Of a DNA stretch of 64,000 nt, positions 45,660 to 61,380 are shown piece by piece. The position numbers and the translations under genes were made by a program. The stretch spans positions 4,461,001 through 4,525,000 of the forward strand of contig NZ_CP084712.1 in assembly GCF_023822045.1 (NCBI RefSeq), read 5' to 3'. Within the stretch, counting starts at the first letter, position 1, and every line of letters begins with the position of its first letter. Under the pieces are notes generated by a model. That model was not told where the DNA came from, did not search any database, and saw nothing but the letters and a program-made list of their open reading frames with translations. This stretch comes from Sphingopyxis sp. USTB-05 (GTDB taxonomy: Bacteria > Pseudomonadota > Alphaproteobacteria > Sphingomonadales > Sphingomonadaceae).

Positions 45660-45772
45660 GAGGAAAACTCCGGGGCTTCAGGCCCGAGACTTGGCGGAGC
45701 CATGTCTCAAGCTCGTGAGGGGTGACCCGCGGCACTGCGACACCGCATGCTGCAGGGGGGGAAGGATCGGAC

Positions 45773-46480
45773 TCAGGCAGCGCTCTGCTTCTCTGCCGGC
45801 TTCGGTGCCGCCAGCAACGCTAGAAGCGCTTCGGCTCCCGCAGTCGATGAAGCGGGATTCTGCCCGGTGATCAGAAGACCGTCGGTAATTGCGAAGCTCC
45901 CCCAGTTTGGAACTTTCTCGAAGAGACCGCCAAGCCGCTTGAGCTCGTCCTCGACAAGGAAGGGCACGACGTCGGTGAGCTGCACTTCCTCCTCTTCGGC
46001 ATTTGTGAAGCCGGTGACGCGCTTTCCCTTCACGATGGGGTCGCCCTTGTATGTCGCTCGGTGAAGAACCGCAGGCGCATGACAGACCGCCGCAACCGGT
46101 TTTCCGCTGTTGTAAAATGCCTCGATGAGCGCGATCGAGTCGGGGTTGTCGACAAGGTCCCACATAGGGCCGTGGCCACCGGGATAGAAAATTGCGTCGA
46201 AATCTTCCGCGCGCATATCCGAGAGCTTTTGCGTGGTGGCGAAAACCTTCTGCGCCTTGAGATCCTGCTTGAAGCGTGCCATTGCTTCGGTCTGATTTTC
46301 GGGGAGGTCGCTTTTCGGATCGACCGGAGGCTGGCCGCCCTTGGGCGAGGCCAGCGTGAGTTCAACGCCGGCGTCGCGGAATACGTAATAAGGCGCCGCG
46401 CCCTCCTCGAGCCAGAATCCCGTCTTACGGCCCGTGTTGCCCAAAATGTCGTGCGAGGTGAACACCATCAGAATTTTCAT
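45773..46480 (-). CDS. DJ-1/PfpI family protein (Hsp31-like)
   Basis: A 235-residue class I amidotransferase-fold protein. The nucleophile elbow is KPVAAVCHAPAVL with Cys in the AVCHAP motif, and the acidic partner is in IFYPGGHGPMWDLVDN. The start MKILMVFTSHDILGNTGRKTGFWLEE fits the Hsp31/YhbO-like group, implicated in glyoxal stress and chaperone function. Together with the neighbouring VOC protein this suggests detoxification of reactive aldehydes (inference). A degenerate copy of the local palindrome lies 64 bases before its start. Confidence 0.85.
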   Translation of the reverse strand: MKILMVFTSHDILGNTGRKTGFWLEEGAAPYYVFRDAGVELTLASPKGGQPPVDPKSDLPENQTEAMARFKQDLKAQKVFATTQKLSDMRAEDFDAIFYPGGHGPMWDLVDNPDSIALIEAFYNSGKPVAAVCHAPAVLHRATYKGDPIVKGKRVTGFTNAEEEEVQLTDVVPFLVEDELKRLGGLFEKVPNWGSFAITDGLLITGQNPASSTAGAEALLALLAAPKPAEKQSAA

Positions 46481-46543
46481 GTCGTGCCTCCTTCGGCTTC
46501 AGTGCATGGCGTCAATCTGTCACGTCGCGGGGCACCAGGAAAT

Positions 46544-46557
46544 CGGACGATAGTATC
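46544..46557. promoter_or_regulatory. Degenerate copy of the GATAC-N4-GTATC element
   Basis: CGGAC-GATA-GTATC retains the right half and the AC of the left half. It is 64 bases upstream of the DJ-1-like start codon and matches the spacing seen at the better sites. Confidence 0.3.
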
Positions 46558-46598
46558 GGAATAGCGCTAAGGCTCCGCAGTCAGGTGGGCGGCTTTGC

Positions 46599-49103
46599 TC
46601 ACCGGCCGAAAGGTCGAACGGTGAACCGCAACCAGAACTCGCGCCCGCGCTCAAAGCCGCAGACTGTCTCTCCCGATCCAGCAGGCCCTTTGATGGGCGC
46701 CCCTGTGACAATGCCGGGGAAAACACCGCCGCCGCCTGGGTAGTTGATATTGAGACAGCCGCCGGTGGTGAGACGATCGGTCAGGTTGTTACCGATAAGC
46801 GCAAGCTCCCATCGATCGTCTCGCGCTTTGAGTCTGATATCGGCGCCGATCTTGGCGAATGCGCTTTGAAAGCCATTATCGCGGTTGCCGAGATCAACGA
46901 CGTAGCGCGATGAATATTGGAGCCGCGCGCCCATTCCCAGTTCGAGGTTGCCGCCGACGGGTCGCACAAAATCGGCGCGAACGGTGGCCTGCCAACGCGG
47001 TGCGCGGTGGAGGGGCGTGCCTGACAAATCCTGCCCATTGTAACGGACGGGCGTGCCCAGCACAGGGTCTATGCTGAAGTAGCCGGCCGCAAGTTCGGCC
47101 GGATCAATTACGGGGGTCGGCAGCAGGTTGCAGCCCTGGCTAACCGTCTGACCGGGCTTACAGTCTGCGTTGGTGAAGCGCGTAAAGATGCCCCGGTTCC
47201 AGTTCAGCGCGCTGGTGAAACTTAGGCCGGGAACGCCGCGCGGGCGATAGCGCAGCGTGAGGTCGATGCCATAGACTTTCGCCGCGCCTGCATTGACGGT
47301 CGCGAGCCCGGGTACGCCGGCGTCGGTGATCCGGATAATGCCTGCTTGCAACCCATCATATCGGTAATAGTAGCCGGCAATATCAAAATAGAGTTGCCGG
47401 GCGCCGGCATAACCCTTGATGCCGACTTCACCTCCGCGTGCCCGTTCGTCACCAAATGAATTGTCGTCACCCGGGTTGAGCGCCTGATTGATGTTGTAGG
47501 AACCCGATTTATATCCCTGCTTGAACGCACCGAAGAATGTCAGTTCGGGGTTCGGATACCAGCTGATCGTCAGCTCGGGCGACCAGTTGCGCGAGTGCAG
47601 GCGGGGAAGCTGCGGCCTGATCGGTTCGCCTTCAACGCCAGTCACGACACCAAGAACGTCATAGGTGACCGGAGCGTCACTACGCTTCTCGTCTGTCCAG
47701 CGCATGCCGCCCGCAATCTCGACCTCGGGTGCCGGGCGGAACCGGGCTTGCGCGAACAGCGCGAGCGAGCGAATGTCGACATCGTGCGAGCCTTGCAGCG
47801 CAACGCGTGGGAGACCATAACGAGCGTTGCCGAAGAATCCGATATCGTTCGTGATATTGGCGTCCTGAAAAAAGACGCCCCCGGAAAAATCAATATCACC
47901 CCCAAGATCGGTGACGAGACGCAGCTCCTGGGTCGCTTCGCGCCGCCGAAATTCTTTCGTGATCGCAAGCGGCGCCATCGCCCCTCCTGCCCACGAGCCA
48001 TTCTGAAGCGCATCGACCCTGATCCGGTAATAGCCGGTCAGCGAGGTCAGCATGAATCGCGGCGAGAGAGCCCAGTTCATTTCCAGCGTGCCGAAGTGCT
48101 GGTCGGTTTCGGTGAAGTTTACGCCTTCATTGGGCACGCGGAAGGCATTCGGATCGACATCGACGATATTGAGGTTGCGATCGGCCCTGCAATCCTCGTT
48201 CGCGCTATATTGCGACGGCAGGTCGATGCCTATCGAAGGCAGATAGTTGATTGTCCCGTCTGGGCAACGGACGAGCTGCTCCTGCAAGCCGCCGAGGCGA
48301 CGGTCGTGGGTGGTGTTCAGCTTGAGCCGCGCGGTGAAATCGGGGCTCGGGTCAAATAGAGCGGTCAGGCGCAGATAAAGTGCGTGGCTCTTGCCAAAGC
48401 GATTGTCGGGCTGCATCGCGCCACTTTCGGGGATCGCGGTAGCGGTGTTGCGGAAATAGCCATCGCTCGAGGCGTATTGTGAAGAAAGCCGCAGTCCCAA
48501 AGTCTCGGTGACCGGCCCCGAGAGAATGAGGCGCGCCTGCCATTCGCGCGCCTCGGCTTCGTACGCCGCGCTTCCGACGATCTCGGTGCGATCGCCTGGA
48601 TCGGCCGTTCGGATGGCTATGACGCCGCCCGGGCTGTTCTTACCGAAGAAGAGGGGCTGGGGACCCTTGAGAATTTCGACCCGTTCCATGTCGAAAATAC
48701 CGATCGAATAGGCGGCGCCCTGTCCCAGTGCCAGTCCGTCGAGATTGAGCGCGACCGATTGGTCGACCCCGGGATCGAGTGGGCTCGAGCCGATGCCGCG
48801 GAGCGATACTTCGGTACCCACCTCCAGCGGTGCTGCGCCAAGTACCAGTCCCGGCGTGAAGGCGGCGATGTCATAAAGGTCGGTGGCTTGGCTGCTGCTC
48901 AGTTCGTCCGCCGGCAGCACTGCGGCTACGACAGGTACCCGCAGGGCGGCCTCCTCACGCTTGCGGGCAGTGACGATGATTTCGTCCGGATCGACAATTT
49001 GGGCCACCGCCGGGAGCGCTTGTCCAAACATTCCGGTCGCGAGCATGGCGCCGCAAATTGCGGTACGCATCGAAAACGGGGGGTTACCCGATACAGGCCG
49101 CAT
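46599..49103 (-). CDS. TonB-dependent outer-membrane receptor
   Basis: An 834-residue TonB-dependent receptor. The signal peptide is MRTAICGAMLATGMFGQALPAVAQ; ATG 49103 (MRPVSG) has GGGAG five bases upstream, whereas 49118 is GTG. The TonB box is DEIIVTARKREE, and the plug carries VEILKGPQPLFFGKNSPGGV and SLRGIGSSPLDPG. The beta-barrel ends REFWLRFTVRPFGR, with the final Phe two residues from the end. It probably takes up an aromatic or lipid-like compound handled by the nearby enzymes, but this is only context. A palindrome copy lies 72 bases upstream of the start. Confidence 0.9.
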   Translation of the reverse strand: MRPVSGNPPFSMRTAICGAMLATGMFGQALPAVAQIVDPDEIIVTARKREEAALRVPVVAAVLPADELSSSQATDLYDIAAFTPGLVLGAAPLEVGTEVSLRGIGSSPLDPGVDQSVALNLDGLALGQGAAYSIGIFDMERVEILKGPQPLFFGKNSPGGVIAIRTADPGDRTEIVGSAAYEAEAREWQARLILSGPVTETLGLRLSSQYASSDGYFRNTATAIPESGAMQPDNRFGKSHALYLRLTALFDPSPDFTARLKLNTTHDRRLGGLQEQLVRCPDGTINYLPSIGIDLPSQYSANEDCRADRNLNIVDVDPNAFRVPNEGVNFTETDQHFGTLEMNWALSPRFMLTSLTGYYRIRVDALQNGSWAGGAMAPLAITKEFRRREATQELRLVTDLGGDIDFSGGVFFQDANITNDIGFFGNARYGLPRVALQGSHDVDIRSLALFAQARFRPAPEVEIAGGMRWTDEKRSDAPVTYDVLGVVTGVEGEPIRPQLPRLHSRNWSPELTISWYPNPELTFFGAFKQGYKSGSYNINQALNPGDDNSFGDERARGGEVGIKGYAGARQLYFDIAGYYYRYDGLQAGIIRITDAGVPGLATVNAGAAKVYGIDLTLRYRPRGVPGLSFTSALNWNRGIFTRFTNADCKPGQTVSQGCNLLPTPVIDPAELAAGYFSIDPVLGTPVRYNGQDLSGTPLHRAPRWQATVRADFVRPVGGNLELGMGARLQYSSRYVVDLGNRDNGFQSAFAKIGADIRLKARDDRWELALIGNNLTDRLTTGGCLNINYPGGGGVFPGIVTGAPIKGPAGSGETVCGFERGREFWLRFTVRPFGR

Positions 49104-49174
49104 GTTTCTCCCGCCCACCCTGAAATGGCCTCAGCGTGCGATCCTTATGCCTGCCGCGCGGTGCCGGCGCTATT

Positions 49175-49188
49175 GATACGAAGGTATT
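49175..49188. promoter_or_regulatory. GATAC-N4-GTAT palindrome upstream of the TonB receptor
   Basis: GATAC-GAAG-GTATT, 72 bases before ATG 49103 of the TonB receptor on the minus strand, in the gap before the crotonase stop. On the minus strand it reads AATACCTTCGTATC. A CATAAGGAT that could be a -10 region lies about 20 bases further toward the gene. Confidence 0.5.
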
Positions 49189-49264
49189 GCCTCTAGCTCC
49201 ATCGCTGCGTGGCCGGCCGCTGTGGGCCGCATTCCTTGCAAGTGCCTTTACGCATCGCTTCGCT

Positions 49265-50089
49265 TCAATGGGCCGGGTCGGCCACGTGACGCCCGAGTTC
49301 GAACTCGATCTCGGAGCGCATCTGAAGCCCGCGATCAAGAAGTCGGGCCATGCGCGCGCGCGTTTCGGGCCGCGCGGTCGATATGAAGAACTGGTCGAGC
49401 GCTGGCGGAAACAGCGCATCGTCCGGCAAGGTTACCTGATCGACGAGCCCTTTGGTCTGCGCGATCGCATATTTCTCGAAACCGGCAATCCGGCGAGCGA
49501 AACGATCCACAAAATCGTCGAGCTCGTCGTCGGGCAGCGCGCGATTGACGTACCCGTAACGCTCGGCGAGATCGCCGGTAAAATCGTCGGCGCCCAGCAC
49601 GATCTCAAGTGCTCTTCCTCGGCCGGCCAATCCACCGAGCCGCGCCATCGGGTTGGCGCCCGGAACCGCCCCGACACCGACCTCGAACTGGCCAAGGATG
49701 GCCTTTTCAGCGCTGGCAAAACGGAGGTCGCACGCGAGTGCAAATTCGCTCCCCGCACCGCGCGCGCGTCCGCGCAAGGAAGCAATCGAGACGACCGGCG
49801 CACGGGCGAGGCGCGCGAGAACGTCGAGCCAGGGGTGCATGCCCGTGGGGCCCTTGGGCATTGCCGCCGTTCTCGCCTTGTCGACGAGCACGTCATAATG
49901 CGCGAGGAAGAAATCCGGGTCCTCGCTGGCGAAGACGATCACCTTGATCGTGGGGTCGGCCTCGAGGCGTCCGACGATGTTCGACAATTCCTCGATCGTG
50001 TCGAGATCGACAAGATTGATGGGCGGGTTCGAGATCGCCGCGCGCCAATAGCCGGGTGTAATTTCATCGATACGGATTTGCTGGGCCAT
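49265..50089 (-). CDS. Enoyl-CoA hydratase/isomerase (crotonase) family protein
   Basis: A 274-residue crotonase-fold protein. The oxyanion-hole segment ASLRGRARGAGSEFALACDLRFAS and VGAVPGANPMARLGG correspond to family motifs, and GxxxG-like helices follow. The Glu usually found at the active site is not obvious in GVGAVPGANPM, so hydratase activity is uncertain. Crotonases hydrate or isomerise enoyl-CoA esters. Neighbours are a TonB receptor and a sensor kinase, not a beta-oxidation operon. A palindrome copy lies 91 bases upstream of its start. Confidence 0.75.
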   Translation of the reverse strand: MAQQIRIDEITPGYWRAAISNPPINLVDLDTIEELSNIVGRLEADPTIKVIVFASEDPDFFLAHYDVLVDKARTAAMPKGPTGMHPWLDVLARLARAPVVSIASLRGRARGAGSEFALACDLRFASAEKAILGQFEVGVGAVPGANPMARLGGLAGRGRALEIVLGADDFTGDLAERYGYVNRALPDDELDDFVDRFARRIAGFEKYAIAQTKGLVDQVTLPDDALFPPALDQFFISTARPETRARMARLLDRGLQMRSEIEFELGRHVADPAH

Positions 50090-50179
50090 GTCCTAGTCTC
50101 GCTCCATGATCGGGCAACGGCGCCCGCCATATAGATTGTGGAGGCGGCGCCTCCGGCGAAACTGGACGAACGTATCGCC

Positions 50180-50193
50180 TATACGTTCGTATC
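50180..50193. promoter_or_regulatory. TATAC-N4-GTATC palindrome upstream of the crotonase
   Basis: TATAC-GTTC-GTATC straddles the stop codon of the sensor kinase gene and is 91 bases before the crotonase start on the minus strand. A second perfect inverted repeat, GAACGTAT at 50168-50175 with ATACGTTC at 50181-50188, overlaps it, giving a compound operator-like structure. Confidence 0.5.
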
Positions 50194-50863
50194 ACTGCTC
50201 CGCGTCGCGAGTGGCCGACCGCGCAATCCGCAATTCCTCGGCGCAAGGGATTTGCACCCGGGCATGGCTTCCTCCGGGCGTGAACATCCATTCTACGCTA
50301 CCCTCGAGATCGGCGATCAGCGCGCGAACCAATTTCTGCCCGCGGCCCGGCACCCTGCAAGTCGCGGCGACACCGTCTTCACAAACCATGGCATCGATGT
50401 GATCGCCGCACTCACGGATGCGAACGAGGATCATGCCGCTGCGGCCCTTCAGCCCGTGACGCGCGGCGTTCCGGACCAGTTCAGCAATGATCAGGCCGAT
50501 GCGCCAGCATCTCTCCGACGCCAGGAAAATGTCGTCGGCCTTGAGAACAAGGCCCACCCCTCTTTCGTTGAGCGAGGCCTTCGCGAAACTTTGGCAGATG
50601 TGGCGCAGATATTCTGCGAGATTGGCCCTGCCGTGCGCGAAAGGTGGCAGCAGCGCGCGGTGCGAAGCAGCATGATCGCGCAGGCGTTCGGCGACGCACG
50701 TGAGACTTTTCCGGCTGCTCTCATCCTCAGCGCGGGCCGCGGCGAACGACAGCATCGAAATGGCTTCGGAATATTCGTTGATCACCCGGTGATTGATCTC
50801 TTCGACGAGATGCAGCGAGCAGGGTGGGGCGGCTGCGTCAGAAGTCAGGCTATGAGCCAACAT
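50192..50863 (-). CDS. Sensorless HWE/HisKA_2-type histidine kinase
   Basis: A 223-residue cytoplasmic protein without PAS or membrane segments. The phosphoacceptor helix is SLHLVEEINHRVINEYSEAISMLSF, with His in EINHRVIN, and the ATPase N-box is IGLIIAELVRNAARHGLKG, the HWE/HisKA_2 arrangement. The ATPase domain is otherwise short; G-box-like features (GRGQKLVRALIADL) follow. It may phosphorylate one of the nearby response regulators or act as a phosphotransfer node (inference). It lies downstream of the FixJ-type regulator gene on the same strand. A palindrome copy lies 75 bases before its start. Confidence 0.8.
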   Translation of the reverse strand: MLAHSLTSDAAAPPCSLHLVEEINHRVINEYSEAISMLSFAAARAEDESSRKSLTCVAERLRDHAASHRALLPPFAHGRANLAEYLRHICQSFAKASLNERGVGLVLKADDIFLASERCWRIGLIIAELVRNAARHGLKGRSGMILVRIRECGDHIDAMVCEDGVAATCRVPGRGQKLVRALIADLEGSVEWMFTPGGSHARVQIPCAEELRIARSATRDAEQ

Positions 50864-50937
50864 ATCGCGGTCCTCCTTTGGTCGGAGGCGATTGGACTGG
50901 ATGGTGAGGCCGACCGCAATTGAACCTAGGTGTGGCG

Positions 50938-50951
50938 TATACCAAAGTGTC
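50938..50951. promoter_or_regulatory. TATAC-N4-GTGTC palindrome upstream of the HWE-type kinase
   Basis: TATAC-CAAA-GTGTC, 75 bases before the kinase start (50863) on the minus strand. Its complement GACACTTTGGTATA is nearly identical to the copy at 52201 (GATACTTTGGTGTC). Confidence 0.5.
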
Positions 50952-50967
50952 GCGTCGGGTGTTGCGC

Positions 50968-51639
50968 TCAGTGAAGCGATGCGGCTGCGAGACCCAGACG
51001 CTCGCTCATCTTGACAAGCGCAGCGAAGGATTTTGCCTGCATCTTCTCCATCACTCGCCCGCGGTGGGCCTTCACCGTAATCTCACTGATTCCCAGTTCC
51101 CAGCCAACCTGCTTGTTGAGAAGGCCGGATACGACCAGCGCGAGAACCTGTCGCTCGCGAGGGCTGAGTGTGTCATATCTAGCCTGCAAAGCTGTCAGGC
51201 CGGCGCTTTCCTCAAGGGCGACCTGACTTTGAGCGAGAGCTCGCTCGACCGCTGGCAAAAGCGCCTCCTCGCCGAGCGGCTTGGTGAGAAATTCCGTAGC
51301 GCCCGCTTTCATGGCCCGCACGGTGGTGGGAATGTCGCCACATCCGGTAATGAAAATTATGGGCATTTGGGACTGACCATCGGCAATCTGCTCCTGAAGA
51401 TCGAGTCCGTTGAGATCGGGTAATCCGATGTCAAGGATGAGGCACGAAGGCGTGGAAGGAAACCCCCGGGCAAGGAATGCCGCCGCGGTCTCAAAGCTTT
51501 CAACGGCCCAGCCCGCTGACTTCAGCAGTGCCTCGAGCCCCTCGCGGGTCGACACATCATCGTCCACAACGATCACCGTCGGCGCCATGTCCTGCATCGG
51601 ATTCCATCCAGATCTGGTCGCAGTGCTGTAAACTAACAT
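50968..51639 (-). CDS. FixJ-type response regulator (receiver plus LuxR HTH)
   Basis: A 223-residue response regulator. The receiver begins PTVIVVDDDVSTREGLEALL with phosphoacceptor Asp in LILDIGLPDLNG and the Lys in EFLTKPL. The C-terminal LuxR-type HTH has LSPRERQVLALVVSGLLNKQVGWELGISEITVKAHRGRVMEKM, as in FixJ/NarL-class proteins. ATG 51639 has AGAGGAAG six bases upstream, so the longest start is preferred over ATGs at 51597 and 51588. It lies next to a kinase, a single-domain regulator and a multi-PAS kinase, and is a plausible binder of the local palindromes. Confidence 0.9.
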   Translation of the reverse strand: MLVYSTATRSGWNPMQDMAPTVIVVDDDVSTREGLEALLKSAGWAVESFETAAAFLARGFPSTPSCLILDIGLPDLNGLDLQEQIADGQSQMPIIFITGCGDIPTTVRAMKAGATEFLTKPLGEEALLPAVERALAQSQVALEESAGLTALQARYDTLSPRERQVLALVVSGLLNKQVGWELGISEITVKAHRGRVMEKMQAKSFAALVKMSERLGLAAASLH

Positions 51640-51665
51640 CGCGGTCTTCCTCTTACATCAGAAAA

Positions 51666-52040
51666 TCAAGACTCCCGCCCCAAAGCTGAACGGATGGCCC
51701 CTACGATCGCGCTCTCGCTGAACGGCTTCACGAGGCAGGCAACCGCGCCGCTGTTCAACAGGTCGGACCACGCGCCATCGTCCGAGTGCGCCGTGATAAA
51801 CACGATCGGAACCGCTCTTTTTTGCCGGATCAACTCCTGCTGAAGCTGTGGCCCCGTCATGCCGGGCATCGCCACATCGAGGACCAAGCATCCCAGCAAG
51901 TCGATCTCGGCATCCCTCAGAAATGCGTTGGCCGAAGCGAACGCCTGCACTCGAAAGCCGAAGGATCTGAGTAGATCGGGTAAGGATTCTCTAACGGATT
52001 CATCATCGTCCACGAGCGCGATTATCTTTTCGTCGGACAT
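51666..52040 (-). CDS. Single-domain response regulator
   Basis: A 124-residue receiver with no output domain. The acidic pair is in IIALVDDDESVRESLPDLL, the phosphoacceptor Asp in CLVLDVAMPGMTG, the Thr in IVFITAH, and the Lys in CLVKPFSESA. Such proteins act in phosphorelays or by protein contact. It is 26 bases upstream of the FixJ-type gene on the same strand, so the two are likely one operon. Its receiver resembles FixJ-type receivers. A palindrome copy lies 161 bases before its start. Confidence 0.9.
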   Translation of the reverse strand: MSDEKIIALVDDDESVRESLPDLLRSFGFRVQAFASANAFLRDAEIDLLGCLVLDVAMPGMTGPQLQQELIRQKRAVPIVFITAHSDDGAWSDLLNSGAVACLVKPFSESAIVGAIRSALGRES

Positions 52041-52200
52041 GAACGTTCCTTGTTATTGCCCCGCATACTCGCCCATCCACCGGCGGCTTCCGTCACCGAG
52101 CCGGTAAGCATCTGAATGCGATACGCCCGCATGGCGCTCTCCATTTGCGCCTCTTGCTTCCCGTCCCGCAGGGTGCGCCAATCTCGGCCGCGCGTCTATT

Positions 52201-52214
52201 GATACTTTGGTGTC
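52201..52214. promoter_or_regulatory. GATAC-N4-GTGTC palindrome in the 52041-52443 gap
   Basis: GATAC-TTTG-GTGTC lies 161 bases upstream of the single-domain regulator on the minus strand. The 403-base gap 52041-52443 holds no strongly supported gene. A weak 71-codon frame (52232-52447, plus strand) has GAGGA just upstream and begins 18 bases after this element, but shows no recognisable domain. Confidence 0.5.
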
Positions 52215-52443
52215 AGTGAAGAGGAAAATGTATGTTTTACATGGTCGTAGGCGACATCCAAGATCCCGCTCGTCTTTCAGGGAGCGCAAACGCCGGAGAT
52301 CCGGCCAACCCTCCATCATGTGGGGGAAGTGCCCCCGTCGCCTTGTTTCTGGACATTGTGGGCGCCGCGATGTTCCTCGCTGCAGGGGAGGCGTCGCTCG
52401 TCCCAGGCACGAACATCCCCGCTGAAGGCCGCACGACCAGTTG

Positions 52444-54828
52444 CTAGCCTTGCAATCGGGGACGTTGTCCTTCCGATCCGCTGTCGGTCCCGGTTTCGAC
52501 CAACGTCGAGGGGGCATCATCAGGACGCGCGCAAGGAACCGAAAAACAAAAACTAGCACCAGGGCCCTCATTTAAGTCGACCCATAGCTTCCCACCGTGA
52601 CGCTCGAGAATGGACTTGCTGACGGAGAGACCGATCCCCATGCCATGCGGCTTTGTCGTGTAAAAGGATGCGAAGACGCGGGATCGATCTTCTGCAGCAA
52701 TGCCGCACCCCGTGTCGCGAACTGCGAGCTGTGCGTTACCGCGATCAGAGTTTACGGTCTCGATGACAATTTGACGCTGAAGGTTGTCGGCGACGTCGAT
52801 TGCGTCTGCTGCATTCAGGATCAGGTTCAGGATAACCTGCTGCAACTGGATTCGGTCGCCAAGCACCTCTGGCAAACTTCTGTCCAAATTGATCCTGAGT
52901 GCGATCCTGCGTCGCTGCAAATCGTGATGGCAGATGGCTACTACCTCCTCGGTCGCGTCGTTGAGATTAAATGGTTCGGCCGTAAAGTCCTTTCTCGCGA
53001 ACAGGCCTCGCAGTCGTTTCAATACCTCGGCGGCCCTGTTGCCGTCGCGGATCGTGCGATTTGCCGTATTCGCGGCGCCCTCGACGTCCGGCGGGTCAGC
53101 TGCGAGCAAACGCAGACAGGCGCTCGCATTGGTTATGATCCCGGACAAGGGCTGATTGACCTCATGTGCAATCGAGGCCGCCAGTTCACCAAGGCTCGAT
53201 ACGCGGGTGATGTGCGCAAGCTCGGATCGCAGGCTCTCGACCGAATTCTCGGCAAGCCGCCGGCGGGTCACATCTTGGGCGACCCCGTAACATTCGCGGC
53301 GTCCATCCTCATGCGTTACAACGCGATAAGATGTGCTGAGAAATTTGATCCGGCCGTCGGGCATCAGCAGCCGCTCTTCATTTTCCGGATACCCCTCGCC
53401 TCGGAACACCCGCGCAATTTTCTCGTCGACCATTGGGAGGTCATCGGGATGACAGTAAGAACGGAGATCGGGACGGACCAGCCCAAAATCGCTGGGAAAT
53501 TCATATATCTGACGCATCTGTTCCGAGAAAATTACTTCGTCGGCATCAACGTCCCAGACGAACGAGCCGGTTTGGCTGATTCGTTCCGAGGTCGTGAGAA
53601 GATATTCGCTACGTCGTAGCTCTTCCTCCACGAGCTTCCTTTCGGTGATGTCCTGGATAGATCCGACGACCACGGGACTGTCGGGATTATCCGGAATGAA
53701 ATGGGCAATCGCATGAAGATGCTTAATGGCCCCGCTTGGTGTCACGATCCTGAAAACTTCGTCAAACTCGCTGTTATTCGCCATCGAGCGCGCGAAACCG
53801 GCGTTGAAAACTCCCAGATCATCGGGATGTATTCGGTCGCGAAACGCGATAAATGTTGGCGGCTCGTCTCTCGGATGATCAAGAATGTTATAGAGTTCAT
53901 CCGACCAGCGGTGGATATCCGCCTTTACATCAGTCGTAAAACTCCCGGTGCGGCTGAGGCGTTGAGCCTGGCTGAGGTGATCATGCGCTTCTCGCAGTTT
54001 GTGCTCGCGCAGCGCGAGATCCTGTTCCGCGCGCTTGCGATCTTCGATGTCGGTTTTGACGCCGTACCATTGCACGACGTTGCCTTGCTCATCATGCAAT
54101 GGACTGCTTTGGAAGTGGAACCACCGGAAGATTCCGTCGTGACGCATCAGGCGCGCTTCGATCTGGCCGCTTCGGCCGGAGGATCGGCATGCCTCCCACG
54201 TCGCCAAGACAGCTTCGAAATCATCCGGATGAACATGGTCGATCCACTGCCATTCGATGAGGTCCGCAGGGGATCGACCAACATAGTCGAGATAATGTTG
54301 ATTAAAAAACTCGGCCGCTCCGTCGGGTCGCGCCGACCATACGAGAACCGGGATCGTGTCGATGATGAGCCGCAGATTCTTGGCTCTGTCTGCCAGCGCG
54401 GCTTCGGCTTCCCGGCGGTCGTGGATGTCGGTCAATAGGACTTGCCACCCCACGAGCCGTCCGCCCTCGTCATGAAGTGGCAGTCCGCGGTTGCTGAGCC
54501 AGCGATATTCGCCGTCGAAACGACGCATCCTTTGTTCGATATCATAGGGTTTGCCGGCCACTATGGCTGCGCCGAATGCCGCCGTCAGATGGGGCAGGTC
54601 GTCAGGATGGATGATTCCATTGGAATCCCAGTTTGCCAGCTCCTCTTGCGTTCGGCCGAAATACTCCCTCAATTCCCGATTGAGATGGAGAACGCTGCCG
54701 TCTGGTGCCAAGACACCAGCCAAGCCGGGCATATGATCGATCAATGCACTTGGCGTCAGCCCGCTAGGGAGCGGATGTTCTTCGTCTTGCGGGTGGTTCA
54801 GTAGGCCTTGCTGCGATTTGTCGCTCAT
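52444..54828 (-). CDS. Multi-PAS sensor histidine kinase
   Basis: A 794-residue cytoplasmic sensor kinase. Four PAS/PAC modules are seen in the first 545 residues, each ending in a DxTER- or DIHDRRE-type linker (DIHDRREAE, DIEDRKRAE, DITERKLVE, DVTRRRLAE). The phosphoacceptor His is in SSLGELAASIAHEVNQPLSG, and the ATPase boxes are LILNAADAI (N), DTGCGI (G1) and GMGIGLSVSKSI (G2). The H-box and the relation to FixJ-type regulators resemble FixL-class kinases. ATG 54828 has GAGGGAG five bases upstream; the longer TTG start is rejected. No transmembrane helix is seen. A palindrome copy lies 75 bases upstream. Confidence 0.92.
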   Translation of the reverse strand: MSDKSQQGLLNHPQDEEHPLPSGLTPSALIDHMPGLAGVLAPDGSVLHLNRELREYFGRTQEELANWDSNGIIHPDDLPHLTAAFGAAIVAGKPYDIEQRMRRFDGEYRWLSNRGLPLHDEGGRLVGWQVLLTDIHDRREAEAALADRAKNLRLIIDTIPVLVWSARPDGAAEFFNQHYLDYVGRSPADLIEWQWIDHVHPDDFEAVLATWEACRSSGRSGQIEARLMRHDGIFRWFHFQSSPLHDEQGNVVQWYGVKTDIEDRKRAEQDLALREHKLREAHDHLSQAQRLSRTGSFTTDVKADIHRWSDELYNILDHPRDEPPTFIAFRDRIHPDDLGVFNAGFARSMANNSEFDEVFRIVTPSGAIKHLHAIAHFIPDNPDSPVVVGSIQDITERKLVEEELRRSEYLLTTSERISQTGSFVWDVDADEVIFSEQMRQIYEFPSDFGLVRPDLRSYCHPDDLPMVDEKIARVFRGEGYPENEERLLMPDGRIKFLSTSYRVVTHEDGRRECYGVAQDVTRRRLAENSVESLRSELAHITRVSSLGELAASIAHEVNQPLSGIITNASACLRLLAADPPDVEGAANTANRTIRDGNRAAEVLKRLRGLFARKDFTAEPFNLNDATEEVVAICHHDLQRRRIALRINLDRSLPEVLGDRIQLQQVILNLILNAADAIDVADNLQRQIVIETVNSDRGNAQLAVRDTGCGIAAEDRSRVFASFYTTKPHGMGIGLSVSKSILERHGGKLWVDLNEGPGASFCFSVPCARPDDAPSTLVETGTDSGSEGQRPRLQG

Positions 54829-54902
54829 GATTGCTCCCTCGACAGGCGCACACAAGTTTCTACTCCGCGCACCGCCGTGCGCCTAGCGCTTCGTCGACGA
54901 CC

Positions 54903-54916
54903 GATACTTTCGTATA
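54903..54916. promoter_or_regulatory. GATAC-N4-GTATA palindrome upstream of the PAS kinase
   Basis: GATAC-TTTC-GTATA is 75 bases before the PAS-kinase start on the minus strand. The 437-base gap 54829-55265 between this kinase and the divergent LysR gene holds no supported gene; a 108-codon minus-strand frame (54974-55300) has no Shine-Dalgarno or domain and overlaps the LysR start. Confidence 0.5.
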
Positions 54917-55265
54917 AGCCCCGAAAGCTCGAGCTCTGCAATCCGGCGAGGTGAGTTCAGCGGATCGTCGCCTTTAGAATGTTGGCCATCGGTGCAGCAG
55001 ATGATGCCGATCCCAACGGCAATAGTCGCGTCGGCAAGGCGAACTGCGGGCTTTTGTTTGCATAGATAATTTCTGGTCGATCAGCACGCCCTCAAAATGC
55101 CAAATGATACTATCGTGCAATGGCGATTGCCGCATCAACGCATGACATCGGGGAACTACTTGGTGTCTCAAGGCTGACGATCGGTGGCGCGCGTTTGCCC
55201 ATTCTCGATCGCTCTCGATGGTTGCATTAACATGATGAGCGCAGGACCATATTTTCGGACGGATC

Positions 55266-56186
55266 ATGGATCGCATCGACTTGATGAATATCTTTATCAC
55301 CGCGGTCGACGAGGGCAGCCTTGTCGGCGCCGCGCGGCGTTTGCGTCGTTCGCCAACCGCGATCAGCCGTGCGATCGCGTCGCTCGAGGGGCATCTGGGC
55401 GTCGAACTGCTTCACCGGACGACGCGAAGCATCCGGCTGAGCGAAGCGGGGCAACGTTATGCCGCCTCGTGTCGGCGCATCCTCGCCGAACTCGAGGAAG
55501 CCGACCTGCTCGCGGGCGGCGAACGTTCGGCGCCGCGTGGGATGCTGACGCTGTCGGCGCCACCGATCAGCGGCGAAGAGGTGCTGCGTCCGATCCTCGA
55601 CGAATTTCTGGGAGCCTATCCGCTGGTTTCGGCGCGCCTGATGCTCGTGGACCGGTCGGTAAATCTGGTCGACGAAGGCGTCGATGTCGCGCTGCGCGTC
55701 GGGCAGCTTCCGGACTCTTCACTCGTCGCGACGCGCGTCGGCGAGGGGGTACGACGCGTGATCGTCGCGTCGCCGCGATATCTGAGCGAGCATCCGCCGA
55801 TCGAAGAGCCTGCCGATATCGCGGGGCACCAGATCGTCTCGCTGACGCATTTCGGGATCGAGGCGTGGGGCTTCGGCAGCGGACCGGCGGCGCGTACCGT
55901 CCATTTTACGCCGCGGCTGGTCGTGAACACGGTGCGCGCGGCTGTCGGCTCGGCGGTGGGTGGGCGCGGGCTGACACGCGTCTACTCCTATCATGTCGCG
56001 CGCGAGGTGAAGGAGGGGCTGCTCACGATCGTTCTGGCCGAAGCCGAGCCGGAACCGCAGCCAGTACATCTGCTCGCGCCCGGCGGACGGATGGCCGTGC
56101 CCAAGGTCCGCGCCTTCGTCGACTTCGCGACCCCGCGGCTTCGTGCCGCCTTCGCAAGACTCGCGATCGACGCGCGCGAGCTCTAG
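55266..56186 (+). CDS. LysR family transcriptional regulator
   Basis: A 306-residue LysR regulator. The N-terminal HTH is MNIFITAVDEGSLVGAARRLRRSPTAISRAIASLEGHLGVELLHRTTRSIRLSEAG, and the C-terminal effector domain begins ERSAPRGMLTLSAPPISGEEVLRPIL. The family usually controls the adjacent genes in response to a substrate-derived ligand. It lies upstream of an SDR-tautomerase-nitronate monooxygenase-DUF3237 set on the same strand, which it probably regulates. The distance to the SDR start is 153 bases, enough for a promoter of the operon. Confidence 0.92.
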   Translation: MDRIDLMNIFITAVDEGSLVGAARRLRRSPTAISRAIASLEGHLGVELLHRTTRSIRLSEAGQRYAASCRRILAELEEADLLAGGERSAPRGMLTLSAPPISGEEVLRPILDEFLGAYPLVSARLMLVDRSVNLVDEGVDVALRVGQLPDSSLVATRVGEGVRRVIVASPRYLSEHPPIEEPADIAGHQIVSLTHFGIEAWGFGSGPAARTVHFTPRLVVNTVRAAVGSAVGGRGLTRVYSYHVAREVKEGLLTIVLAEAEPEPQPVHLLAPGGRMAVPKVRAFVDFATPRLRAAFARLAIDAREL

Positions 56187-56339
56187 TTACATCATTATCC
56201 CGATACGCGGGAGAATGTCTTCCGCTGAAGATCAATTATCTCGGCATTGCGCCTGACCTACGTTGCTCCCGTCGGCGCATGGCGCGCCACACGGGCGAGC
56301 TTTCCCGTCCCGTCCTCCCATAAGCAAAGGTTCAATGTC

Positions 56340-57050
56340 ATGAGCAATGCACAGAAAGTCGCCGTCGTTACCGGCGCATCGCAGGGTATCGGCGCCGCAC
56401 TCGTCGACGCCTATCTCGACCGTGGGTATCGCGTCGTAGCGACCTCGCGTTCGATCCAGCCATCGAGCAATCCCGACATGCTGGCGATCGCGGGCGATAT
56501 CGGAGACCCCGAAACCGGCCCGCGCGTGATCGCCGCCGCGCTCGAACATTTTGGCCGCGTCGACACGCTGGTCAACAACGCCGGCATCTTCGTCGCGAGC
56601 CCCTTCACCGGCTATAGCGCCGATCAATATGCCGGCGTCGTATCGACCAACCTCAACGGCTTTTTCTACATCACGCAGGCCGCGGTTGCGGCGATGGAAG
56701 CGGTCGGGGGCGGGCATGTCGTCAGCATCACGACCAGCCTTGTCGATCATGCCAATTCGAACGTCCCGTCGGTCCTCGCCTCGCTGTCGAAGGGCGGCAT
56801 CAATGCGGCGACCCGGAGCCTCGCAATCGAATATGCGAAGCGTGGTATCCGCGTGAACGCAGTATCGCCGGGCATCATCAAGACCCCCATGCACGCCCCG
56901 GAAACGCATGAATTCCTCTCGGCGCTGCACCCGGTCGGTCATATGGGCGAGACGTCGGACATCGTCGATGCCGTTCTCTTCCTCGAAAATGCGGCCTTCG
57001 TGACGGGCGAGATCCTGCACGTCGATGGCGGCCAGTCGGCCGGGCATTAA
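56340..57050 (+). CDS. SDR-family oxidoreductase lacking the catalytic Tyr
   Basis: A 236-residue short-chain dehydrogenase fold. The cofactor motif is VVTGASQGIGAAL, followed by LVNNAGIF, and the C-terminal part has IRVNAVSPGIIKTPM and VTGEILHVDGGQSAGH. The catalytic region reads VVSITTSLVDHANSN, then VPSVLASLSKGGINA: the Lys is present, but the usual Tyr four residues earlier is Ala. The normal SDR proton-transfer step is therefore questionable; an altered reaction is possible. ATG 56340 (MSNAQK) is chosen because the longer frame has no homologous start. It is the first gene of the LysR-linked operon. Confidence 0.82.
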   Translation: MSNAQKVAVVTGASQGIGAALVDAYLDRGYRVVATSRSIQPSSNPDMLAIAGDIGDPETGPRVIAAALEHFGRVDTLVNNAGIFVASPFTGYSADQYAGVVSTNLNGFFYITQAAVAAMEAVGGGHVVSITTSLVDHANSNVPSVLASLSKGGINAATRSLAIEYAKRGIRVNAVSPGIIKTPMHAPETHEFLSALHPVGHMGETSDIVDAVLFLENAAFVTGEILHVDGGQSAGH

Positions 57051-57074
57051 TCCGGTCTGTCAAGGAGACGAGCC

Positions 57075-57311
57075 ATGCCTATCGTGACCGTTCAACTGAC
57101 CCGTGAAGGCACCGAGCCCGGTGTCGATCATGTAACCCCCGAACAGAAAGCCGAAATCTACAAGGGAATGAGCCAGGTTCTGCTCGACGTGCTCGGAAAG
57201 CCGCTCGACTGGACATGGGTTATCTTTCAGGAGGTCGAGATGGAAGATTGGGGCTGGGGCGGTATGCCCGTCGAGGAGTATCGCAAGAAGCTCGCGGCCA
57301 CCTCCGGCTGA
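57075..57311 (+). CDS. Tautomerase family protein (4-oxalocrotonate tautomerase-like)
   Basis: A 78-residue protein starting [12 protein letters not shown]. Removal of Met leaves Pro-1, the catalytic base of the 4-oxalocrotonate tautomerase superfamily. The middle [40 protein letters not shown] is typical of the family. Such enzymes tautomerise keto-enol intermediates of aromatic degradation or act on unsaturated acids. AAGGAG lies upstream. It sits 24 bases after the SDR gene. Confidence 0.88.
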
Positions 57312-57334
57312 ACCGTTCAATCTTGGAGACGATG

Positions 57335-58405
57335 ATGAACGCCCGCCATCTTACCAGCATGCTCGGCATCGAATTGCCGATCATCCAGGCGCCGATGGCG
57401 GGTGTATCTTCGCCCGCCATGGCGGCGGCGGTCAGCAACGCGGGCGCGCTCGGCTCGATCGGGGTCGGCGCGACCGATGCCGATGGCGCGCGCGGGATGA
57501 TTGCCGCGGTACGCGAGGGCGCCGCGAAGCCATTCAACGTCAATCTCTTCTGCCACGCGCCCGCCGTTGCCGATGCGGCGATCGAAGCCGCGTGGATCGC
57601 CCGTCTCGCACCGCTGTTCGCCGAGTTTGGCGTGGATGCACCGGACGCGCTGGGCGAAATCTATCGCAGCTTCGTCGCCGACGAGGCGATGCTCCAAATG
57701 CTTCTGGGCGAGCGGCCGGCCGTCGTCAGCTTTCATTTCGGCCTGCCTTCCGAATCCGCGATCCGGGCGCTGCGCGACGCCGGCATCCTGTTGCTTGCAT
57801 CCGCGACCAACCTTGACGAAGCGCGGATTGCATCGGCCGCGGGCGTCGATGCCGTCGTGGCGCAGGGATGGGAGGCTGGCGGGCATCGCGGGGTTTTCGA
57901 TCCCGACGCGCCCGACGATCGGCTCGGCACTATGGCACTGACGCGCCTGCTCGTCGATGCGATCGACCTTCCGGTCATCGCGGCGGGCGGTATCATGGAC
58001 GGCGCGGGCATCGCCGCCGCGTTGGATTTGGGTGCCGCGGCGGCGCAGCTCGGCACCGCCTTTATCGCCTGCGACGAAAGTCTGGCCGATGCCGGCTATC
58101 GCGCCGCGCTGACGAGCGAAGCCGCGCTGCATACGAAGATGGTGCGCGCCGTTTCGGGGCGCCCGGCGCGCATATTGGCGAACCGGTTTGCTGCGCTCGA
58201 CGGCAATGTTCCGGCGACGCATATCCCGGCCTATCCGATCGCCTATGACCTTGGCAAAGCGCTGCACGCAGCGGCCAAGTCGCGCGGCGAATATGGCTTT
58301 GGTGCGCAATGGGCAGGGCAGGGGGCGCCGATGGCACGCGCCATGCCCGCCGCGGACCTCATCGCGACGCTGGCCGCCGAGATGGCAGCGGCCCGAAATT
58401 CGTGA
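57335..58405 (+). CDS. Nitronate monooxygenase family (FMN-dependent)
   Basis: A 356-residue TIM-barrel flavoprotein of the NMO family, which oxidises nitronates and related compounds with FMN and oxygen. [32 protein letters not shown] at the N-terminus is the flavin-site opening. [18 protein letters not shown] carries the catalytic-type His of class I/II enzymes, and [31 protein letters not shown] the phosphate-binding strand. ATG 57335 has GGAG six bases upstream. It is 23 bases after the tautomerase. In other sphingomonads NMO homologues are paired with SDRs and tautomerases; the substrate here is unknown. Confidence 0.88.
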
Positions 58406-58419
58406 CAGGAGCTGACAAT

Positions 58420-58908
58420 ATGGACGATTTCGACGAAGCCTTTGCCGCGCTCGGCGATCTGCGCGGGCGCCCGCTGTTCGTGATCAAGGTCGGCGTCGAC
58501 CATATCCATCTGATCGGTGGACCAGCCGGAATCGACCGGCGCGTCGGCGAGATGGTCGCAGGGCGCTTCGCGGGCGAACGCCTGTCGGGCGATGTCCTGA
58601 CCGGCGGTGCCGACTGGCAGATTGTGCGCGCCGACGGGGCCGTGCTGCTCGACGCGCGGGTGGTGCTGCGCACCGAAGACGGCGCCGAGATCGCAATGGA
58701 ATATACGGGCATCCGTACCGGGCCGGCCGACGTCATCGCGCGGCTGGGGCGCGGCGAGCCGGTCGATCCGGCCGACTATTATTTTCGCATCGCCCCGCGC
58801 TTTTCGACGTCAGATCCGAGATACGAATGGCTGAACCGCATTATGGCGGTCGGCATCGGTCACCGGCTGCCCGGGGGGCCGGTCTACAGCATCTTTGAGA
58901 TTGTTTGA
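58420..58908 (+). CDS. DUF3237 family protein
   Basis: A 162-residue beta-barrel-like protein consistent with DUF3237, a family with no confirmed activity. Segments GGPAGIDRRVGEMVAGRFAGERLSGDVLTGGADWQIVRADGAVLLDARVVLRTEDGAEIAMEYTGIR, YYFRIAPRFSTSDPRYEWLNRIMAVGIGHR and VYSIFEIV are diagnostic. ATG 58420 has AGGAG upstream. It is 14 bases after the nitronate monooxygenase gene and closes the operon. Confidence 0.82.
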   Translation: MDDFDEAFAALGDLRGRPLFVIKVGVDHIHLIGGPAGIDRRVGEMVAGRFAGERLSGDVLTGGADWQIVRADGAVLLDARVVLRTEDGAEIAMEYTGIRTGPADVIARLGRGEPVDPADYYFRIAPRFSTSDPRYEWLNRIMAVGIGHRLPGGPVYSIFEIV

Positions 58909-58917
58909 AGGAGGCGG

Positions 58918-59403
58918 CTATCCCGGCCAGACCAGCCCTTCGGGCGCGCCGCGGCCGAGCCGGTCGGGAAGCGTCTCGCCGACGGCGACGAACTCGAGCG
59001 AGCCGCTGTTGATGCAATAGCGCAGCCCCGTCGGCGGCGGCCCGTCGGGGAAGACATGCCCCTGATGAGATCCGCAGCGCGCGCAGACGATCTCGGCGCG
59101 AACCATGCCATAGCGCCTGTCTTCGATCGTCTGCAGATGGTCGGCGCGGAACGGCGTCGTGAAGCTCGGCCAGCCGGTGCCGCTTTCGAACTTGGCGCCC
59201 GCGCGGAACAGCGGCAGGCCGCAAAGGCGGCAGCAATAGACGCCCTCGCGCTTTTCATAGAGGAAGAGGCCGCAAAAGGGTGCCTCCTCCGCATGCTCGA
59301 GGAGGAGGCTGCGCTCCTCGTCGGTCAACGCGGCGGCGAGGTCGTGCCGTTGCTGCCGCGTCGGCGGCGCCAGGTCGAACAGGTCGCTGCCGACCTCAGC
59401 CAC
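58918..59403 (-). CDS. msrB: Peptide-methionine (R)-S-oxide reductase
   Basis: A 161-residue MsrB that reduces methionine-R-sulfoxide in proteins using thioredoxin. The structural zinc cysteines are CRLC and CARC, the catalytic Cys is in YCINSGSLEF, and GTGWPSF and HQGHVFPDGP complete the motif set. Length is normal. Its stop is ten bases past the convergent DUF3237 stop. Its start overlaps the 3' end of the upstream hydrolase gene by eight bases, so the two are co-transcribed. Confidence 0.95.
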   Translation of the reverse strand: MAEVGSDLFDLAPPTRQQRHDLAAALTDEERSLLLEHAEEAPFCGLFLYEKREGVYCCRLCGLPLFRAGAKFESGTGWPSFTTPFRADHLQTIEDRRYGMVRAEIVCARCGSHQGHVFPDGPPPTGLRYCINSGSLEFVAVGETLPDRLGRGAPEGLVWPG

Positions 59404-60448
59404 GCGCTACGTCCAGCACTGCCTGCGCGAACGCCTGTGGGGCTTCCTGCGGCAGGTTGTGGCCGATGCCGCCGCCGATATCGCGATGCTCATAGCGGCC
59501 CGTGAACTTGGCGCGATAGGCGGCGGGCGGCGGGTGTGGCGCGCCATTCGCGTCGCCTTCCATCGTGATCGTCGGAACGCCAATCGTCGGCGCGGCCGCG
59601 ATCTGACGGTCGAGGTCGGCATAGCGCGCTTCGCCGTCGGCGAGGCCCAGCCGCCAGCGATAATTGTGGATCACGATGTCGACATGGTCGGGATTGTCGA
59701 ACGACGCGGCGCTACGGGCGTAGGTGGCTTCGTCGAAATTCCATTGGGGCGAGGCGAGCTTCCAGATCAGCCGGTTGAAATCCTTGCGGTTCTTGTCGTA
59801 GCCGAGACGGCCGCGCTCGGTCGCGAAATAAAATTGATACCACCATTGCAGTTCGGCCTCGGGCGGCAGCGGCGCCTTGCCCGCTTCCTGTCCGGCGACG
59901 AGATAACCGCTTACCGCAACAAGACCGCTGGTGCGTTCGGGCCAGATGGCGGCGACGATATCGGCGGTGCGCGCGCCCCAGTCGAAGCCTGCGAGAACGG
60001 CGCGCTTGATCTTCAGCGCGTCCATGAAATCGATCAGGTCCTGTGCGAGCGCCGCCGGCTGACCGTTGCGAAGGCTGTCGCCCGAGAGGAAACGCGTCGG
60101 GCCATAGCCGCGCAGATAGGGGATGAGGACGCGATAGCCCTTCGCAACCAGCAGTGGCGCGACATTGGCAAAGCTTTGGATATCATAGGGCCAGCCGTGG
60201 AGCAGGATCGCGACCGGCCCCTTGGCAGGGCCCATGTCGATGTAGGAAACGTTGAGAAGACCCGCCTCGACCGATTTGAGCGGCGGGAAGCCCCGGCCGG
60301 TCGAAGGTGCGGTCTGGGCACTTGCCGGGTCGGGCGCTGCACCGGCGCTGGCAAGGCTCAGTCCGATCTGCGCGGCCACGGCAACGCCGGTGATGCCGAG
60401 AAACTGCCGGCGGTCCGACAGGCCCTGTTCGAAAGTGGAAAGCTGCAC
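59396..60448 (-). CDS. Epoxide hydrolase-type alpha/beta hydrolase, Tat-exported
   Basis: A 350-residue alpha/beta-hydrolase with a twin-arginine signal (DRRQFLGITGVAVAAQIGL). HGWPYD near the oxyanion region and the nucleophile Asp in AVLAGFDWGARTADIVA are the epoxide hydrolase/haloalkane dehalogenase type, with a His in GGGIGHNLPQEAP. It should hydrolyse an epoxide or a related ester in the periplasm. It is the first gene of the unit with msrB, and its promoter lies in the 396-base gap to the divergent operon starting at 60845. Confidence 0.85.
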   Translation of the reverse strand: MQLSTFEQGLSDRRQFLGITGVAVAAQIGLSLASAGAAPDPASAQTAPSTGRGFPPLKSVEAGLLNVSYIDMGPAKGPVAILLHGWPYDIQSFANVAPLLVAKGYRVLIPYLRGYGPTRFLSGDSLRNGQPAALAQDLIDFMDALKIKRAVLAGFDWGARTADIVAAIWPERTSGLVAVSGYLVAGQEAGKAPLPPEAELQWWYQFYFATERGRLGYDKNRKDFNRLIWKLASPQWNFDEATYARSAASFDNPDHVDIVIHNYRWRLGLADGEARYADLDRQIAAAPTIGVPTITMEGDANGAPHPPPAAYRAKFTGRYEHRDIGGGIGHNLPQEAPQAFAQAVLDVARG

Positions 60449-60489
60449 GTCGTCATACCCCTTTGTATGGGCCTGTCGGGCCGGAAGTG

Positions 60490-60571
60490 GGACGCGGACG
60501 GACTGGGCGGGGGAGGGAGTGGAGTCCGTCCGCGTCCTCGGCCCGGCACGGCCAGCGGGAGCGGTGCCGGG
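60490..60571. repeat. Two long hairpins in the 60449-60844 gap
   Basis: GGACGCGGACGGACT (60490-60504) and AGTCCGTCCGCGTCC (60523-60537) form a perfect 15-bp stem with an 18-base purine-rich loop. CCCGGCAC (60542-60549) and GTGCCGGG (60564-60571) form a second hairpin. They lie 42-123 bases upstream of the minus-strand hydrolase start. The 396-base gap contains no supported gene; the remainder holds the palindromes at 60659-60689. Confidence 0.7.
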
Positions 60572-60658
60572 ATTTCACTATATATTCGCTTGATCGGGGC
60601 GCCTCGTTACCGGCTACCCGACGCCGGCCATATTGAGCGGTCGGGACGGGAAATCGAT

Positions 60659-60689
60659 TATACGTTTGTCTTGGTGACACCATCGTATC
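60659..60689. promoter_or_regulatory. Two tandem GATAC-N4-GTATC-type palindromes
   Basis: TATAC-GTTT-GTCTT (60659-60672, degenerate right half) and GACAC-CATC-GTATC (60676-60689) lie four bases apart. They are 155-185 bases before the plus-strand operon at 60845 and about 210-240 bases before the minus-strand hydrolase, so either unit could be controlled. Confidence 0.45.
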
Positions 60690-60844
60690 GATCGCCCGTG
60701 CCGGTCCTTGGCAATGACGGCCCGCCGACACCAAAGTCCAATACTGCACCCGGGCCTCGGCCCCTATCTCGCCCTGCAGGCTCGGCGCGGACCACTTCGG
60801 CAGCCCGCGCGACGATGCCGCTCCCCTCGGCAAAGGATAGAGAT

Positions 60845-61369: not shown

Positions 61370-61380
61370 GGAGACGAGTC

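Follow-up and report, generated by a model that had tools for sequence, protein, structure and literature searches.

The response regulators StyR, TodT, TutB and TmoT share a box, ATAAAC-N4-GTTTAT, which according to PMC5874301 is recognised via K175, V176 and H179, and dimers of phosphorylated StyR are described in PMC2442086 as able to join into tetramers across two sites. Here we report on a system of this kind in a 64,000-nucleotide stretch of the Sphingopyxis sp. USTB-05 genome (the window in what follows; C1:4461001-4525000 of a genome that is one contig of 4.68 Mb), where a 14-bp inverted repeat with the core AYAC-N4-GTRT recurs near genes for signal transduction, uptake and catabolism. 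With good confidence, and judging from sequence, these sites are predicted to be operators of the FixJ/StyR-type response regulator encoded at 50968-51639 (minus strand), which would control signalling genes and a local catabolic/detoxification cluster. In its best form the element is a 31-bp composite, of which the 14-mer makes up one half, and we class the system as a variant of StyR/FixJ-type control.

The regulator matches PF00072 and PF00196 above cut-off, that is, a receiver followed by a GerE/LuxR helix-turn-helix (HTH) domain as in FixJ/NarL-type proteins, and its recognition helix reads ITVKAHRG. Its best structure match by sequence is 1yio, which we take to be StyR, and the second is FixJ (5xso). 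The likeness to StyR and TodT covers the receiver with NarL/FixJ HTH, the AC-N4-GT operator geometry, the PAS-type kinases and the catabolic targets. However, the half-site is ATAC here and AAAC there, no AAAC-N4-GTTT is present in the window, and the copies described here stand exactly 17 bp apart. The StyR contacts K175, V176 and H179 correspond to K190, A191 and G194, so that the lysine alone is kept. The PAS histidine kinase (52444-54828, minus strand) consists of four PAS_3 stretches, one HisKA and one HATPase_c with no receiver match in Pfam, whereas TodS/StyS-type kinases have two transmitters and an internal receiver; for TodS, two transmitters are described in PMC5874301.

With FixJ the protein shares the two-domain architecture, but the NCBIfam FixJ model is matched with 197.9 of 255 bits, below its cut-off, the kinase matches the FixL model below cut-off as well, and no nitrogen-fixation family is among the Pfam matches of the part of the window that holds the sites. 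A further comparison is offered by the PhyR/EcfG general stress response, which employs HWE/HisKA_2 kinases and single-domain regulators. The window has a single-domain response regulator (51666-52040, minus strand; Pfam) and a kinase at 50192-50863 (minus strand) which an earlier note on this DNA had called HWE-type; it is indeed a histidine kinase, but its Pfam family is HisKA_2, it has no PAS match, and its nearest NCBIfam model, PhyK, is matched far below cut-off. EcfG-type promoters (GGAAC-N16/17-CGTT, scanned for as N15-18) are not enriched in the window, with 2 found and 2.4 expected.

All eight places listed in the earlier note carry the sequences given there, and the listed distances to start codons agree, subject to the start chosen for the TonB-receptor gene. 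A weight matrix built from the seven sites rated as good, and then used to score those same sites, assigns them 14.5-21.1 bits. The earlier note had noticed no comparable copies in 1-46 kb, and no matrix score there exceeds 10.2 bits. The strict form KAYAC-N4-GTRTM is found at 19 places in the genome, compared to 14 for the reversed pattern used as control, and five of the 19 fall between 50180 and 60689, within about 10 kb (Poisson P ~1e-9). Outside this cluster the strict matches are no more frequent than those of the control (14 each); the genome scan proposed in the earlier note came out mostly in its favour. Of the spacers from 0 to 12, AYAC-Nk-GTRT uses k=4 six times in the window and none of the others more than once. 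The loose pattern with up to two mismatches shows no enrichment window-wide (51 observed, 55.9 expected) and was dropped as evidence, which leaves the strict form and the placement of the copies to carry the case. One-mismatch copies also occur at 45060 and at 48805, the latter within the TonB-receptor gene. Four copies are new relative to the earlier list (50163, 50921, 55106 and 60727), and the copies at 50163 and 50921 each lie 17 bp from a listed site.

The spacing of 17 bp recurred when the window-site matrix was applied to the surroundings of FixJ homologues. The 80 named-genome loci yielded 74 matches of at least 12 bits, a single Markov-shuffled copy 21. When the 47 closest loci (L046, L047 and 45 of the 80) are taken, the AYAC-Nk-GTRT count has its maximum at k=4 with 48 matches, other k giving 6-22. 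A second copy is exactly 17 bp away in 25 of 39 pairings of a strong copy with a second one 10-60 bp apart, pairs of two strong copies entering this count twice, and spacings of 16 and 18 bp account for two pairings each. The resulting composite is a 31-bp palindrome with the consensus TGnACnWWnGTATC-GnC-GATACnWWnGTnCA, in which four half-sites of alternating direction are 9, 8 and 9 bp apart. A self-trained 31-bp matrix picked out 55 places at 11 bits or more, where one shuffled set gave 5; at 13 bits or more there were 42 distinct elements, compared to 2 hits in that shuffled set.

From these, the composite model R1, based on sequence only, was built with 33 distinct elements and eight of them reversed. 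Of the 55 places, those in seven Bradyrhizobium loci (L119, L120, L133, L138, L139, L141, L143) were excluded; their elements are nearly the same, the matrix had drifted to them, and we judged them to be conserved coding sequence. Also excluded were L077, which repeats L070, L095 (24.6 bits), whose omission had no sound basis, and a further 13 places scoring 11-20.5 bits, window site 49175 among them. The outer half-sites are often bordered by CTATT/AATAG (at 50163, 49175, 52201 and in many relatives). By eye, the orientation of this flank toward the gene fits the window and most annotated loci; an open reading frame (ORF)-based count of composites pointing at their gene gave 18 versus 11 with one tie (p=0.26), and we make no claim of it.

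Three composites are present in the window. The element at 50163-50193 (minus strand; copies 50163 and 50180) is a predicted operator before the enoyl-CoA hydratase/crotonase (ECH) gene; it is the top match of R1 in the genome, being itself in the training set, and its 50180 copy overlaps the final bases of the HisKA_2 kinase gene. The second predicted operator, 50921-50951 (minus strand; copies 50921 and 50938), precedes the HisKA_2 kinase gene. The third, 60659-60689 (copies 60659 and 60676), had been described as two copies before a hydrolase operon; the pair is there, but it sits between the divergent genes for the AB1 hydrolase and orf60845, so that its target could be either the hydrolase side or the gene at 60845, or the two together. 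Single 14-bp sites are found upstream of the TonB-receptor gene (49175-49188, minus strand; 19.6 bits), 161 bp upstream of the single-domain regulator (52201-52214, minus strand), before the PAS histidine-kinase gene (54903-54916, minus strand; matrix scan) and 160 bp upstream of a LysR gene (55106-55119, plus strand; 12.7 bits). A weak third copy, GACACCAAAGTCCA, lies before orf60845 (60727-60740, plus strand; 8.1 bits), and the degenerate site GATACTATCGTCCG (46544-46557, minus strand) is located 64 bp upstream of the DJ-1/PfpI gene. Beyond the end of the window, at window-equivalent 65692, an extra site precedes an OprB-porin gene that is followed by an epoxide-hydrolase gene.

The link between element and regulator is drawn from the recognition helix. 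In a test of 106 loci with leave-one-out scoring and a composite threshold of at least 18 bits, 21 of the 31 regulators whose residues 190-194 read KAHRG had a composite beside them, as did only 2 of the 75 regulators with other residues (Fisher p ~1e-12, uncorrected for kinship). The window locus combines the KAHRG helix with three composites under leave-one-out. On a tree of the 106 regulators, the distribution of the composite requires four changes, compared to about 21 with shuffled labels. Six plasmid loci outside the training were taken of 15 listed (267 records matching). Composites occur in all five with a KAHRG helix (Cupriavidus KK10, S. fredii, M. ciceri, R. leguminosarum and R. indicum, with 1-3 each; the two Rhizobium loci are close relatives), but not in the sixth, Rhizobium CCGE532, whose helix reads QIHRR; shuffled copies gave 0 per set. 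The Cupriavidus record is unannotated. In the four annotated KAHRG plasmid loci, each of the 10 composites falls between the genes of the (incomplete) gene table, and where annotated the plasmid composites precede PAS-kinase, epoxide-hydrolase, SDR/nitronate monooxygenase (NMO) or VOC genes.

R1 was then used on overlapping samples of 199 family, 385 class and 398 phylum genomes. In the own genome it finds the three window composites, all of them in training; other matches have E>0.6 except C1:3421354, the sole other match at E<=0.05, which lies within a 449-aa open frame without Pfam match and is likely due to chance. Five of the 199 family genomes have matches at E<=0.01 (G000, G011, G081, G061, G154). 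The best composites are those of G000, G011 and G081. The same three, and no others in the family sample, have a FixJ homologue that reaches 60% identity, and all of them supplied R1 training elements; places outside training are G011:C6:82857, G011:C6:88744 and G081:C23:69451, all within 23 kb of the FixJ gene. The composites of G061 and G154 are weaker, lie within SDR and biotin-carboxylase genes (Pfam) and were taken as chance. Three class genomes (G000, G441, G475; E<=0.003) and four phylum genomes (G000, G619, G637, G754; E<=0.002) were matched, where the G754 composite, inside a GcpE gene (Pfam), was likewise taken as chance.

G441, G475 and G619 contributed no training sequence, and in each of them a FixJ homologue shares the contig with the composite; the loci of G441 and G475 have no sampled 40-mer in common with the training loci. 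The contig-linked regulator has the KAHRG helix in G475 (45% identity to that of the window) and in G619 (54%), and the regulator fragment of G441 stops short of the helix. For G475, four FixJ homologues were reported; KAHRG is present in the one surrounded by composites and in none of the other three. The neighbours of this KAHRG regulator are ECH, DJ-1, SDR, tautomerase, isochorismatase and hydrolase homologues, and three composites of G475 are located 57, 55 and 79 bp upstream of ECH, SDR and ECH homologues, respectively. In G619 the regulator is accompanied by glyoxalase, ECH, hydrolase, epoxide-hydrolase and orf60845 homologues.

The two relatives in the family sample allow a comparison of orthologous promoters. 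In G011, 14 receptor, enzyme and LysR genes, from glyoxalase through EH2, are 87-97% identical to those of the window (45159-62933), whereas the best EH3 homologue has 66% and is located elsewhere, and the genes for the kinase, the FixJ-type and single-domain regulators and the HisKA_2 kinase are just 47-62% identical and placed elsewhere in the stretch. Sites are kept in G011 before ECH, the HisKA_2 kinase, the single-domain regulator (an identical 14-mer), LysR and AB1/orf60845 (a near-identical element), ECH and LysR adjoining with the composite between them. G011 has another site before a MEDS gene that neighbours the PAS kinase; it falls within the longest frame, yet ahead of the MEDS domain. 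Sites of at least 13 bits are found in G081 before AB1 and a divergent single-domain regulator, the epoxide hydrolase, the MsrB homologue (45%) and a MEDS gene. As an observation beside this, the G011 loci (L180, L047), set against the window, look as if regulators had been exchanged while operators stayed. In both genomes a gene with a MEDS (DcmR sensory) domain adjoins the PAS kinase (L047:4079-4942 in G011, L046:15049-15666 in G081) and may be part of the sensing pathway.

Several results qualify or weigh against the assignment of the sites to the regulator. The comparison of orthologous promoters proposed in the earlier note came out mostly in its favour, but the TonB-receptor copy of G011 has a core change (14.1 bits), its DJ-1 gene has no site of at least 7 bits (the window DJ-1 site itself scoring below 7 bits), and G081 has no site before ECH and only 7.5 bits before the HisKA_2 kinase. 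Within the window, the sites at 49175, 52201 and 54903 are single copies. In the 47 closest loci the control GTRT-N5-AYAC reaches 36, above other control spacings. Most loci were gathered through FixJ homology and many are related. Composites are missing at 10 of 31 KAHRG loci; at seven of these ten a lone 14-bp site reaches 13 bits or more, and L072, L076 and L122 have neither a composite nor such a site. Conversely, L095 and L118 carry composites beside non-KAHRG regulators, and lone 14-bp sites also stand beside some of these (e.g. L083, L100, L140), which makes the 14-mer the broader and the composite the narrower feature.

In the phylum sample, G637 has a good composite, yet no FixJ homologue at E<=1e-30. 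The KAHRG regulator of G515 (62% identical to that of the window) has no composite in the 15 kb read, where two 14-bp sites of 15-16 bits are present. The FixJ alignment is matched at E<=1e-50 by 62 of the 385 class genomes, and many genomes have a FixJ homologue without a composite. Eight of ten composites outside training loci fall within crude longest-frame ORFs, although four of these eight could be resolved as upstream of real starts, three in G475 by homology and one in G081 before a flavin-reductase domain. Our confidence was slightly lowered by G515 and by this crude ORF result.

Other readers of the sites have to be considered. LysR-family regulators bind dyad sites, often beside their own targets, and the LysR gene at 55266-56186 (plus strand) is part of the cluster, has a site upstream and has counterparts adjoining the regulator in the R. 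leguminosarum and R. indicum clusters. G081, however, keeps sites while the region compared there (32.9 kb) has no match to the window LysR at E<=1e-12, the S. fredii and M. ciceri stretches have composites with no LysR listed in their incomplete gene tables, and the composite follows the FixJ recognition helix, so that we regard ownership of the sites by LysR as quite improbable. It is improbable, too, that a factor encoded elsewhere, such as a paralogous FixJ-type protein, binds the sites and that the FixJ gene is merely a co-target. The genome does encode further FixJ homologues (C1:1426792, 1203070 and 4573826), and the G637 composite speaks for such a factor, but the helices of the three paralogues read KIHRG, KLHRS and EVHRA, and 20 kb around the first two (L055, L060) contain no composite. 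Moreover, the composite shares a contig with a FixJ homologue in G441, G475 and G619, with KAHRG in both cases where the helix is readable.

A role of the inverted repeats at the RNA level, as hairpins or terminators rather than as protein-binding DNA, is hardly credible. The 31-bp element can fold on itself, and complementarity at its variable paired positions amounts to 0.52 versus 0.46 in shuffles, 3% of which are as high; the N4 centres of both 14-mers, however, do not exceed shuffles in self-complementarity, in the window and in annotated loci the elements precede the starts, and no T run was seen after the elements inspected. The proposal of the earlier note that a dimeric regulator, plausibly the FixJ-type protein, reads a local regulon is supported, and its attribution to the protein at 50968-51639 is probably right; the present analysis adds the 31-bp composite, the four unlisted copies, the tie to KAHRG helices and the occurrence of the system in other bacteria.

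With the FixJ/StyR-type protein as the reader, the phosphorylated dimer would bind each 14-bp inverted repeat (xAYAC-N4-GTRTx), and at the strongest places two dimers side by side would cooperate on the 31-bp element. The PAS histidine kinase, as the proposed sensor, would phosphorylate the regulator upon a chemical signal, perhaps with assistance of the small HisKA_2 kinase and the single-domain regulator in a phosphorelay. We tentatively guess that the signal might be a reactive aromatic, epoxide or carbonyl compound. Under control of the regulator would be its own signalling genes and local genes for uptake, catabolism or detoxification. By analogy with StyR/TodT we assume activation; a CAAT-like flank near some sites could instead mean promoter overlap.

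The presumed target set begins with a possible target, the DJ-1/PfpI family gene (45773-46480, minus strand), and with the likely targets TonB-dependent receptor (46599-49103, minus strand), ECH (49265-50089, minus strand) and LysR. The LysR gene is followed by a run of genes for an SDR oxidoreductase, a tautomerase, an NMO and a DUF3237 protein (56340-58908, plus strand), for which no site of its own was found; the SDR, tautomerase and NMO may nevertheless belong to the set. MsrB and the alpha/beta hydrolase AB1 (58918-60448, minus strand) are likely targets of 60659-60689, and on the other side orf60845, without Pfam match, an isochorismatase-like hydrolase and an alpha/beta hydrolase (60845-62933, plus strand) form a likely operon after 60659-60740. 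The set would further include the EHN-type epoxide hydrolase (62980-64000, minus strand, running on to window-equivalent 64293) and the OprB porin, whose gene lies upstream of it.

The first gene of that operon (60845-61369) encodes a 174-aa protein without Pfam or NCBIfam match, which is kept in G011 (97%), G081 (75%) and G619 (45%); a strong site precedes it in the window, G011 and G619, and a weak one (10.1 bits) in G081. Immediately before the cluster, at 41634-44585, a MobA/MobL relaxase with TraI-like helicase domains is encoded, which suggests that this chromosome region was once mobile. A second palindrome, GATACATATGTGTATCG, has three genome copies (C1:435566, 3869993 and 3876758; L004, L013, L014), two of which share further identical bases up to an ATG, and variants at 431631, 443608 and 446388; it is a putative operator of a different kind, possibly of TetR type.

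FixJ/NarL-type regulators are abundant, every genome of the family sample being matched. To our knowledge, few DNA sites are known for them, and their regulons are therefore rarely readable from sequence. In the open-licence PubMed Central (PMC) literature, the motif strings turned up in no paper whose title looked relevant, and queries pairing FixJ with epoxide hydrolase or other cluster enzymes listed nothing on the system; a text search of PMC4861429 showed the box terms to be absent from it. As far as sequence can tell, the pair of site and regulator recurs in soil bacteria of distant groups. We lean towards the view that a 31-bp operator of four half-sites is what the KAHRG subfamily recognises, and that the regulon under its control is a mobile one for epoxide/electrophile catabolism or detoxification. 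If this is true, the regulon would be shared by members of the family of the window, rhizobia, Azospirillum, Variovorax, Cupriavidus and others, and the pairs of helix residues and half-sites (KV..H with AAAC, KA..G with ATAC) would amount to a readable specificity code for a large regulator family. For one subfamily there is now a 31-bp signature with which any genome can be searched, together with matching helix residues and recurring target genes. The specificity code can thus be tested directly, and so can the role of an enzyme cluster that is widespread but otherwise has no name.

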